Positions 25,116-28,396 of a DNA stretch of 64,000 nucleotides are shown one piece after another (within the stretch, counting starts at the first letter, position 1; each line of letters starts with the position of its first letter). Under the pieces are notes generated by a model. That model ran no database searches. It saw nothing but the letters and a program-made list of their open reading frames with translations, and was not told where the DNA came from. Made by a program: the position numbers and the translations under genes. Origin of the DNA: Burkholderiales bacterium 67-32 (GTDB lineage Bacteria; Pseudomonadota; Gammaproteobacteria; Burkholderiales; Burkholderiaceae_B); contig MKUP01000010.1 of NCBI GenBank assembly GCA_001898625.1, positions 1 to 64,000 on the forward strand, read 5' to 3'.

Positions 25116-25957
25116 TGGACGAGGCCGCGCGCATGGAACCGGCGTCCGCGCCGGGCAGGATCGACATGGCGACCGAGGGCGGTGTGCTGACGCTGACCCT
25201 GGCGCACGCGGGCAAGCTCAATGCGCTGACCGCCGCTATGTGGCGCGCGCTGGCCGCGGCGATGCGGGATGCGGCGGACCAGCCGGGCCTGCGCGCCGTC
25301 GTCATCCGGGGCGCGGGCGGCCATTTCGCGGCCGGGGCCGACATCGGCGAGTTTCCGGTGGAACGGGGTGGCCTCGCGGCGGTGCGCCGTTATCACGAGC
25401 GGATCATCGCGCCGGCGCTGCACGCGATCGACGAATCTCCGCTGCCCACGGTGGCGCTGATACAGGGGGCCTGCGTGGGCGGCGGCCTGGAGATCGCCTG
25501 CTGCTGCGACCTGCGCATCGCCGGCCGCAGCACCCGCGTGGGCGCGCCCATCGCGCGGCTGGGATTTCCCATGGCGCCGGCCGAGCTTGCCGGCCTGCTG
25601 GCCGTGGCCGGCCGCGCGGTGGCGCTGGAACTGCTGCTGGAAGGCCGTATCCTGGACGCCGCCGAGGCGCATGCCAAGGGCCTCCTGACCCGCGTGGTCG
25701 AGGATGCCGAGCTCGAGGCCGAGCTTGGGCGCACCCTGTCCCGCCTTGCCGCCGGCGCGCCGCTGGCGGCCACCCTGAACAAGCACATGGTGCGGCGACT
25801 GCAGCGGCCCGAGCCGCTGGACAAGGCCGAACTGGCGGCATTCTTTTCCTACAGCGACACCAGCGATCATCGCGAAGGCGTGGCGGCGTTCCTCGAAGGG
25901 CGCGCCCCCGTGTTCGGCGGCGACGCTTCACCTTTTCCGACCGAAGAAGATAGATGA
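25115..25957 (+). CDS. Enoyl-CoA hydratase/isomerase (crotonase) family protein
   Basis: The 280-residue protein has the crotonase oxyanion-hole segments GAGGHFAAGADIGEF and ACVGGGLEIACCCDLRIA. The ATG at 25115 overlaps the Bug stop codon (TGATG), and the end overlaps matB by four bases, so it is fully embedded in the operon. The two catalytic glutamates of true hydratases are not conserved clearly: the second region reads LGFPMAPAELAG. It may act on a malonyl- or methylmalonyl-type CoA ester. The reaction is not settled by sequence. Confidence 0.85.
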   Translation: MDEAARMEPASAPGRIDMATEGGVLTLTLAHAGKLNALTAAMWRALAAAMRDAADQPGLRAVVIRGAGGHFAAGADIGEFPVERGGLAAVRRYHERIIAPALHAIDESPLPTVALIQGACVGGGLEIACCCDLRIAGRSTRVGAPIARLGFPMAPAELAGLLAVAGRAVALELLLEGRILDAAEAHAKGLLTRVVEDAELEAELGRTLSRLAAGAPLAATLNKHMVRRLQRPEPLDKAELAAFFSYSDTSDHREGVAAFLEGRAPVFGGDASPFPTEEDR

Positions 25958-27492
25958 AAGACGAGAATCTCTATGCCCTGCTGGCCTCCGGCTTCCCCGC
26001 CGATCGCGACACGGTATGTATCGAGGCGCCGGGCGCGGGCGATTACACCTGGCGCGACGTCGAGACGCAGACGGCGCGCATGGCGAACCTGCTGCGTTCG
26101 CTGGACCTGCCCGAAGGCGCCCGCGTGGCGGTCCATGTCGAGAAATCCCCCGAGGCCTTGCTGCTGTACCTGGCCACCTTGCGCGCGGGCTATGTCTACC
26201 TGCCGTTGAACACCGCCTACCAGGAAGCCGAGATCGATTACTTCCTGGGCGACGCCGAGCCTTCGGTGGTGGTCTGCGCCGGCAAGAACCTGGAGTGGGT
26301 ACAGCGCTGCGCGCAGCGAGCCGGGACGCGCCACGTCTACACGCTGGACGACGATCGCACCGGCACGCTGCTGGATGCCGCCGCCCAGGCCTCGCCCGAG
26401 CATGCCGTGGCCGTGCGCGCCGCGGACGACCTGGCGGCCATCCTGTACACCTCGGGCACGACGGGACGCAGCAAGGGCGCCATGCTGACCCACGGCAACC
26501 TGGCCTCCAACGCCCGCGTGCTGCACGAATACTGGGGCTGGCGCGCCGACGACGTGCTGCTGCACATGCTGCCCATCTTCCACGTGCACGGGCTGTTCGT
26601 GGCCGCGCATGGCGCGCTGCTGGCCGGCGCGAAAATGATCTGGCTGCCCAAGCTGGACGTGGCCGCCGCGCTGCGTCTGCTGCCGCGCTGCACCGTCATG
26701 ATGGGCGTGCCGACCTACTACGTGCGGCTGCTGGCCGAGCCGGCCTTCGGGCGCGAGACCTGCCGCAACATGCGGCTATTCGTGTCCGGGTCGGCGCCGC
26801 TGCTGATGGAGACGTTCAACGCTTTCCGCGAACGTACCGGCCACACCATTCTCGAGCGCTACGGCATGAGCGAGACCGTCATGCTGGTCTCCAATCCCTA
26901 CGACTCCGCCCTGGGCGAACGCCTGGGCGGTACCGTGGGCCAGCCGCTGCCTGGCGTTTCGGCGCGGGTGGTGGACGATGCCGGGGCGGCGTGCCCCCCG
27001 GGCGAAATCGGCAACATCCAGGTCCAGGGCCCCAACGTGTTCAAGGGCTATTGGCGCATGCCCGAAAAGACCAAGGAGGAGTTCACCGCGGACGGCTGGT
27101 TCAAGACCGGCGACGTCGGCCGCTGGGGCGGCGAATCCGGCGGCGCCAAGGTGCCCGACGGCTATCTGTCCATTGTGGGCCGCAGCAAGGACCTCATCAT
27201 CTCGGGCGGCTTCAACGTCTACCCGAAGGAAATCGAGAGCTTCCTGGACGACATGCCGGGGGTGGAGGAAAGTGCCGTCATCGGCGTGCCGCACCCCGAC
27301 TTCGGCGAGGCGGTGATGGCCGTGGTCGTGCCCAAGCCGGGCGCTAGCCTGGACGAGGCCGCCATGATCGCCGAACTCAAGGCCAGGATCGCCAACTTCA
27401 AGGTGCCCAAGCGCATCCACGTGGTGTCCGAACTGCCCCGCAACACCATGGGCAAGGTCCAGAAGAACGTGTTGCGCCAGACCTATGCGTGA
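25954..27492 (+). CDS. matB: Malonyl-CoA synthetase / acyl-CoA ligase
   Basis: The 512-residue AMP-forming ligase has the P-loop ILYTSGTTGRSKGAMLTH (about residues 163-180), the acyl-pocket region ERYGMSETVML, and the C-terminal hinge KTGDVGRW. GRSKDLIISGGFNVYPKEIE and the catalytic lysine in PRNTMGKVQKN follow. The length and motifs fit MatB, which activates malonate with ATP and CoA. It ends the cluster, so malonate would be activated here and decarboxylated by MatA to acetyl-CoA. Confidence 0.9.
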   Translation: MKDENLYALLASGFPADRDTVCIEAPGAGDYTWRDVETQTARMANLLRSLDLPEGARVAVHVEKSPEALLLYLATLRAGYVYLPLNTAYQEAEIDYFLGDAEPSVVVCAGKNLEWVQRCAQRAGTRHVYTLDDDRTGTLLDAAAQASPEHAVAVRAADDLAAILYTSGTTGRSKGAMLTHGNLASNARVLHEYWGWRADDVLLHMLPIFHVHGLFVAAHGALLAGAKMIWLPKLDVAAALRLLPRCTVMMGVPTYYVRLLAEPAFGRETCRNMRLFVSGSAPLLMETFNAFRERTGHTILERYGMSETVMLVSNPYDSALGERLGGTVGQPLPGVSARVVDDAGAACPPGEIGNIQVQGPNVFKGYWRMPEKTKEEFTADGWFKTGDVGRWGGESGGAKVPDGYLSIVGRSKDLIISGGFNVYPKEIESFLDDMPGVEESAVIGVPHPDFGEAVMAVVVPKPGASLDEAAMIAELKARIANFKVPKRIHVVSELPRNTMGKVQKNVLRQTYA

Positions 27493-27546: not shown

Positions 27547-27879
27547 GCGCCCGTGACGAAACTGGTAGACGTAGCGGACTTCCGTAAGAGTGGAGTGCCC
27601 TGGACGAAAGTCCGGGAGTAGAACCCGTCAAATTCGGCGAACCCCTGGCACGGGAACGCCGAGCCAAGCAGGCGGCCGAAGTTGGCCGCTGGGCGTGTGT
27701 AGAGACTCGACGGCGGGGACCTAAGGCTGGCGCGGCAATCCTGCCGCGCGACGCGATGGTCAAGGCAGAGTCCAGACCCCAAACGGCATTGCCCCGTGCA
27801 ATCCGGCTGCGCGAGCAGTAGCGGGTAAGAAAATCCGCCGCCGCAAGGCGTGCCGGTTCGATTCCGGCCGGGCGCACCA
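27547..27879 (+). tRNA. tRNA-Leu (anticodon UAA), interrupted by a group I intron
   Basis: Exon 1 is 27547-27581 and exon 2 is 27830-27879; joined they make an 85-base tRNA with encoded CCA. The acceptor strands are GCGCCCG and CGGGCGC with discriminator A. The anticodon stem is GCGGA/TCCGC around a seven-base loop CTTAAAA, giving anticodon UAA. The long variable arm CGCC-GCAA-GGCG is typical of leucine tRNA, and the T-arm is GCCGG-TTCGATT-CCGGC. A TACAAT box at 27532-27537 is a plausible -10 element. Splicing is required for function unless another gene supplies this tRNA. Confidence 0.95.
27582..27829 (+). ncRNA. Group I self-splicing intron (IC3-like) in the tRNA-Leu anticodon loop
   Basis: The 248-base insertion lies exactly after U34 of the anticodon, the same site used by cyanobacterial tRNA-Leu(UAA) introns. 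P1 pairs exon ACTT (27578-27581) with GAGT (27588-27591), giving the required U-G wobble at the 5' splice site. P2 is a hairpin with a GAAA tetraloop (27599-27615). P7 pairs GACTC (27704-27708) with GAGTC (27768-27772). P8 pairs GCGCGGCA with TGCCGCGC (27730-27749). The intron ends in G27829. Blocks such as TCAAATTCGGCGAA, AACGCCGAGCCAAGC and GTGTAGAGACT match, from memory, the Azoarcus tRNA-Ile intron. No endonuclease gene fits inside. Confidence 0.93.
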
Positions 27880-27958
27880 TTTCCTCCTTCCCCATCCGGG
27901 CCGCTGCGCGGGTATGCCGCTTGCTAGGTCCCGTCGTCCTCATCCACCGGAGACGACG

Positions 27959-28396
27959 ATGAATCAAGCCAGCATGCGGAGAAATGGCAGGGGGCGATTG
28001 TTCGATCGCTTCGCGACGGCGGTCACCCGCAGCACGGGATCGCCGCCGGCATTCAGCGTGGCATGCGCGGCCATCCTGCTCTGGGCCGCACTCGGGCCTA
28101 TATTCCACTTTTCCGAAACCTGGCAACTGGTGGTCAATACCGGGACCACCATCGTGACCTTCCTGATGGTGTTCGTGATCCAGCGTACCCAGAACAAGGA
28201 CAGCGAGGCGCTGCACCTGAAACTGGACGAGTTGCTGGGGGCGCAGGCAGGCGCCAACAGCAAGCTGGTGGCGATCGAAACGATGGATGAGGACCACCTG
28301 CGCCGGCTGAGCGCGCGCTACCACGCGTTGGCGGAAAGGGTGGCGCGGGAGCGGGCGGGGCCGTCTTCCGGGCCCGGGAATGCAAATCACCGTTAA
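27959..28396 (+). CDS. Low-affinity iron permease family membrane protein
   Basis: The 145-residue protein has two likely membrane helices (residues about 32-50, FSVACAAILLWAALGPIFHF, and 55-75) and the family stretch NTGTTIVTFLMVFVIQRTQN followed by KDSEALHLKLDELL. This is the pattern of the low-affinity iron permease/DUF3309-like group (Pfam PF04120). Transport of iron by bacterial members is unproven. The ATG at 27959 follows CCGGAGACGACG. It lies just after the tRNA-Leu gene and before a diguanylate cyclase, with no obvious operon partner. Confidence 0.8.
   Translation: MNQASMRRNGRGRLFDRFATAVTRSTGSPPAFSVACAAILLWAALGPIFHFSETWQLVVNTGTTIVTFLMVFVIQRTQNKDSEALHLKLDELLGAQAGANSKLVAIETMDEDHLRRLSARYHALAERVARERAGPSSGPGNANHR

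Follow-up and report, generated by a model that had tools for sequence, protein, structure and literature searches.

A small group I intron interrupts the tRNA-Leu(UAA) gene of a Burkholderiales bacterium 3' of U34

In cyanobacterial and plastid tRNA-Leu(UAA) genes, a group I intron lies between U34 and A35, and a tRNA-Leu(UAA) intron was reportedly described in 2002 from a deep-subsurface gammaproteobacterium. For Azoarcus-like introns the subgroup label IC3 is used. Self-splicing is known for the cyanobacterial and plastid tRNA-Leu(UAA) introns from titles cited in PMC3984707, and the cyanobacterial ones are also discussed in PMC5733544. Introns in the tRNAs of alpha- and betaproteobacteria already figure in reviews, and PMC8450103 places the tRNA-Ile2 introns of Acidovorax and Burkholderia outside the design of tRNAscan-SE 2.0.

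The window analysed here, a 64-kb stretch of a Burkholderiales contig, holds at 27547–27879 a tRNA-Leu(UAA) gene into which a group I intron of 248 bases is inserted 3' of U34 (Table 1). Both the host gene and the insertion point between U34 and A35 are those of the cyanobacterial and plastid introns. ARAGORN, when introns are allowed, reports a tRNA-Leu(taa) of 85 bases with an intron of 248 bases and an exon junction between gactt and aaaat, and the exons alone form a complete 85-base tRNA-Leu(UAA). An initial annotation, made from the letters of the window, had given the same coordinates, intron length, insertion 3' of U34 and terminal G, and all of these are borne out by ARAGORN and by the sequence. 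In its default mode over the 64-kb window, ARAGORN called a tRNA-Cys as the one tRNA and missed the split tRNA-Leu. The gene is flanked on one side by an AMP-binding/CoA-ligase-like reading frame (25954–27492, named by eye) and on the other by a 160-aa frame (27914–28396). No phage match was found, and no viral relative of the gene upstream of the split tRNA was confirmed.

Table 1. Coordinates in the window of the exons, the intron and its paired elements
Feature	Coordinates	Strand	Composition	Basis
tRNA-Leu(UAA) 5' exon	27547–27581	+	35 bases, ending in U34	ARAGORN with introns; sequence
Group I intron	27582–27829	+	248 bases, terminal G at 27829	ARAGORN, structure, R2
tRNA-Leu(UAA) 3' exon	27830–27879	+	50 bases, CCA encoded	ARAGORN with introns
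P1	27578–27596	+	exon ACUU 27578–27581 with guide GAGU 27593–27596	drawn structure
P2	27599–27616	+	27599–27605 with 27610–27616, GAAA loop	drawn structure
P3	27624–27717	+	27624–27629 with 27709–27710 and 27714–27717	paired in 41/41
P4	27634–27662	+	27634–27639 with 27657–27662; encloses P5, 27642–27644 with 27652–27654	
P6	27663–27698	+	27663–27665 with 27696–27698; third pair a C-U mismatch in the window	
P6a hairpin		+	27672–27677 with 27684–27689	local pairing read by eye
P7, pseudoknot with P3	27704–27772	+	GACUC 27704–27708 with GAGUC 27768–27772	paired in 41/41
P8	27726–27754	+	27726–27727 with 27753–27754; local 8-pair extension 27730–27737 with 27742–27749	
P9	27776–27826	+	27776–27780 with 27821 and 27823–27826	
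P9a		+	27784–27791 with 27799–27805	drawn structure, coordinates checked
P9b		+	27806–27810 with 27815–27819; closing pair G.U in the window	drawn structure

The Rfam group I model, which the initial annotation had named as a check, does match the intron, but the score of RF00028 (20.3 bits, E 0.03) lies below the gathering score of 50 and is alone not decisive; this curated threshold is the score cut-off of one broad model and not a defining group I trait. A second covariance model, R2, trained on 31 introns of which none came from the family of the window, gives the intron a score of 153.2 bits (E 2.9e-41), and nothing else on either strand of the 64 kb matches up to E 10. R2 also matched all of 27 further loci, which had been picked because they hold such introns. 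The folding energy is only moderately low (z −3.65), and the minimum-energy fold differs from the group I fold.

Conservation of the fold was assessed in an alignment (A1) of 41 same-site tRNA-Leu introns with pairwise identity of at most 88% and lengths of at most 262 bases. A hand-drawn structure from P1 to P9b has 94.7% of its cells paired, compared with a shuffled mean of 77.8%, the drawn structure being somewhat favoured because it was drawn on the same 41 sequences that were used to score it. Its covariation score is 0.452, against 0.133 for shuffled and at most 0.090 for slid versions, and changes on both sides occur in 33 of its 52 pairs. P3, P7 and P8 are 100% paired over the 41 introns, and such two-sided changes with pairing kept throughout are seen in four pairs of P3, three of P7 and both of P8. 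The P7 pair G27704–C27772, which we take to be the guanosine-binding pair, is GC in 41/41 introns, and the terminal intron G is an invariant column. At the 5' splice site, where U34 faces G27593 in the window, the pair is UG in 37/41 introns and CG in the remaining four, which are the tRNA-Leu(CAA) rows.

The P1 with its U-G pair, the GAAA-capped P2, the P7 and the P8 proposed in the initial annotation are all present, and P3, P4, P5, P6, P9, P9a and P9b fit as well. Its P1 needs correction in one respect, as two GAGU strings are neighbours here; the string in Table 1 is the likely guide because GAGU at that place is conserved in relatives. The first extension pair of P1 is C27582–G27592; C-G at this place is the state of the window genus, A-U being the most frequent among the 41 introns. 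An alternative P3, 27625–27627 with 27711–27713, was paired in only 35, 15 and 15 of the 41 and was replaced by the pairing found in 41/41. The P6a pairs of the alignment-drawn structure are not formed in the window. At the level of sequence, the insert is confirmed as a group I intron. No evidence was found for another class of insertion, such as a protein-spliced tRNA intron or the scar of a mobile element, and such a class is scarcely credible, since length, structure and R2 match all fit group I.

The source assembly (6.66 Mb in 34 contigs, 99.08% complete, 3.14% contamination) contains the full split gene once. It gives 46 tRNA matches, ten of which are at least 82 bases long, the length of leucine tRNAs; these read as Tyr, Ser (four), Leu UAG, Leu CAG (two), Leu CAA and Leu GAG. 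An intact tRNA-Leu(UAA) is therefore absent from the long tRNAs of the assembly, and a search of the same genome with an anticodon-loop pattern gave no further UAA tRNA. A second, intact gene would have made the split one a dead copy in the terms of the initial annotation, and none was found in the source genome. Since no intact tRNA-Leu(UAA) was found in this 99%-complete genome, the reading of UUA codons very probably depends on splicing, although a copy missing from the 34-contig assembly is conceivable.

A pattern for an intact tRNA-Leu(UAA) gene matches 155 members of a 200-genome sample of the family and none of the 11 members of the genus. R1, a tRNA-Leu intron model with the window intron in its training, matches 34 of the 45 family genomes in which this pattern is lacking, compared with 35 of the 155 in which it occurs. 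Eleven of the 45 show no R1 match either, so that some genes must escape the pattern and filters. In a neighbouring genus (g4), each of the sampled genomes has an R1 match and none has the intact pattern. The alternative, a dead or dispensable window gene whose intron no longer splices and whose UUA codons are read by another tRNA, could draw on the weak RF00028 match and on the coexistence, elsewhere in the family, of a split tRNA-Leu(CAA) with an intact gene in 2/2 stretches checked. The conserved structure and exons, the lack of another UAA tRNA among the ten long tRNAs and the lack of the intact pattern throughout the genus nevertheless make it very improbable.

In all 11 genomes examined from the genus the full-length gene is present, with U34 before the insertion site shared by all, a terminal G and introns of 244–300 bases. 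Identity of the mature tRNA is 93–100% across the genus, and that of the intron drops further. In nine of ten genus relatives the upstream flank can be aligned as far as the gene or close to it; L132 does not have this flank. In two relatives within the genus (L123 and L124) similarity to the window ends just past the 3' end of the split tRNA, as if DNA had inserted there; no integrase was found downstream in these two relatives among the frames scanned, a single ORF in L181 and two in L182. One locus of the genus (L184, G179:C44) has a second such intron, which by eye follows U33 of a gene resembling tRNA-Ile(CAU), a site that differs from the Azoarcus site.

It is highly likely that the split tRNA-Leu(UAA) gene of the window is functional and essential, and that the insert after U34 is a small group I intron without an endonuclease. 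The support is sequence-based and consists of the exons, the intron, its structure and covariation, the failure to find another such gene in the assembly, and conservation in the genus. In the folded pre-tRNA, the end of the 5' exon would pair with the guide in P1, leaving a U.G pair at the cut, and the P3/P7 pseudoknot would form the site for a free guanosine. This guanosine would attack 3' of U34, and the freed U34 would in turn attack 3' of the last G of the intron (27829), so that U34 is joined to A35 in the mature tRNA-Leu(UAA); the anticodon stem would keep the exons together. Both transesterification steps would presumably proceed as in other group I introns, and we infer that the ribozyme works without protein in the cell. 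As neither default ARAGORN nor the curated Rfam cut-off recovered the gene, standard tRNA finders can overlook the sole tRNA gene for a codon.

Among relatives, the nearest named kin of the window intron are the tRNA-Leu introns of Mycetohabitans and Paraburkholderia, which share gene, site and model with it; identity to Mycetohabitans over the gene is about 69–70%. The window genus differs from these kin in having C-G rather than the commoner A-U as the first P1 extension pair and in its long P8. The Azoarcus-type introns of betaproteobacterial tRNA-Ile(CAU) belong to the same structural family, but they are inserted after position 36 (10/10 settled loci among the matches listed) whereas the window intron is inserted after position 34. 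The alphaproteobacterial tRNA-Arg(CCU) introns are likewise of this structural family, but they too follow position 36 (17 loci among the matches listed) and are placed elsewhere in the tree.

In a tree of 107 intron cores, built without the cyanobacterial introns, the 11 rows of the window genus form one clade (100/99), which groups with tRNA-Leu introns from Mycetohabitans, Paraburkholderia and further genera within the family (34 rows, 96/99), a grouping in which the window genus and 19 family rows meet as long branches, in a run whose bootstrap had not settled. The ten tRNA-Ile(CAU) introns form a separate clade (100/99). When the 19 long-branched family rows are removed, the window genus stays with Mycetohabitans and Paraburkholderia (98/100), and when the window genus is removed, the 19 rows stay there as well (96/92). 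A cyanobacterial-type core was sought in viral contigs and none was found.

The initial annotation had described the intron as looking like the Azoarcus type. The broad family is indeed shared, but the insertion is not in tRNA-Ile(CAU) after position 36, as it is in the Azoarcus type, and the intron joins those of tRNA-Leu in the tree. A jump into tRNA-Leu from the betaproteobacterial tRNA-Ile(CAU) lineage with the Azoarcus site would be consistent with the common family, with the R2 scores of five tRNA-Ile introns (108.7–121.9 bits) and with an AU test that leaves a single clade of the window genus and the ten tRNA-Ile rows unrejected (p 0.211). Forcing that grouping costs 32.9 log-likelihood units, and with the two clades apart in the full tree and the window genus still among tRNA-Leu introns once the long branches are taken out, such a jump is unlikely. 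Descent among tRNA-Leu introns appears to be the better reading, short of proven, and the betaproteobacterial host fits the intron's neighbours in the tree.

The 19 further family loci, which are the best DNA matches to the window and no random draw, have their introns in tRNA-Leu(CAA) in 14 cases and in tRNA-Leu(UAA) in five. In all 14 CAA loci (within L133–L151) the 5' exon ends in C34 with the guide G opposite, and in the tree the CAA rows are one group (97/89) adjoining the UAA rows. Kin introns in tRNA-Leu(CAA) were seen at L133–L144, L146, L148, L152–L155, L179 and L180. Six stretches were inspected for their neighbours, and some of the copies have conjugation or integrase genes in their vicinity. 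TrbI lies beside the split tRNA-Leu(CAA) in L152 and L154, with DUF2274 also in L152, and in L179 and L180 an intact tRNA-Leu(CAA) and a phage-type integrase lie about 5 to 6.6 kb from the split copy; the frames scanned in L153 and L155 showed neither TrbI nor integrase and intact tRNA-Leu(CAA). Two split copies stand some 5 kb from one another in L153, and L178 has a partial tRNA-Leu(CAA) that starts near the anticodon loop.

Because an intact copy is present in both stretches where this was seen (L179 and L180), the split tRNA-Leu(CAA) copies may not need to splice. A tentative and rather doubtful reading is that the intron lineage moved from tRNA-Leu(UAA) into extra CAA copies on integrative elements, exchanging the near-universal U.G for C34-G, and that it may there shield the carried tRNA from integrases, splicing, if it still works, restoring the tRNA. 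On this reading the elements would have their integration site in tRNA-Leu(CAA), and the shielding would come from the intron interrupting the duplicated stretch at its anticodon-loop end. The C34-G copies would offer a natural test of the need of group I introns for U.G at the 5' splice site. Among the titles listed in literature searches, none plainly describes the split tRNA-Leu(CAA) copies or the plasmid-borne intron.

A scan of 84,980 species genomes with a P7-P3-J3/8 core pattern gave at least 117 loci: 80 with a settled site, 21 with an ARAGORN intron call but an unsettled site, and 16 without a call. Boundaries were taken from ARAGORN calls shifted so that the intron ends in G, with an exon end in T preferred, a rule that builds in U.G-like ends wherever several choices exist. 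Among the matches listed, the 80 settled loci comprise tRNA-Leu(UAA) after 34 (39 loci), Arg(CCU) after 36 (17), Ile/Met(CAU) after 36 (10), CAU after 33 (three), Thr(UGU) after 34 (three), Leu(UAA) after 33 (two) and six single-case sites, some of them doubtful. The introns of this family at the site of the window intron come, among the matches listed, from alpha-, beta- and gammaproteobacteria and from some records labelled Acidobacteria, Bacteroidetes and others. The novelty that the initial annotation implied for this combination of site and type does not hold in view of the 39 loci; the window gene is a fresh example of a known intron kind at a known site, and literature searches on the intron and its relatives found no paper describing this particular gene.

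Self-splicing introns in bacterial tRNAs are probably commoner than the few textbook cases imply, because R1 matches 69/200 genomes of the family and 61/276 of the class, proportions that, like those of the scan, depend on a pattern and a model both built on the intron type of the window. Several loci that ARAGORN names Phe, Ser or Stop appear to be tRNA-Leu(UAA) genes called out of register. At L057, L058, L120 and L015 the intron follows U34 of a tRNA-Thr(UGU) or tRNA-Ser(UGA), which is the loop position used in tRNA-Leu(UAA) too, and L015 has an intact tRNA-Leu(UAA) shortly after the intron-bearing tRNA. Pairs of R1 matches about 0.4–0.5 kb apart (G308:C13, G413:C1, G280:C175, G360:C275 and G434:C481) are perhaps neighbouring split tRNAs.

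On the resistance plasmid pCTX-M3 (L003:3001–3294, NC_004464.2) lies a tRNA-Leu(UAA) that is missing from the annotation and is split by a complete group I intron on the scale of 214 bases, which R2 matches at 218.9 bits. In the one record whose neighbours were viewed, this split tRNA lies on the same stretch as aac(3)-IId. Near-identical DNA with at least 80% query coverage was found in 1257 of 72,556 plasmid records and in 624 of 5426 E. coli genomes. In the tree, the pCTX-M3 intron falls among alphaproteobacterial introns (Enterovirga, Camelimonas and Rhodovulum).
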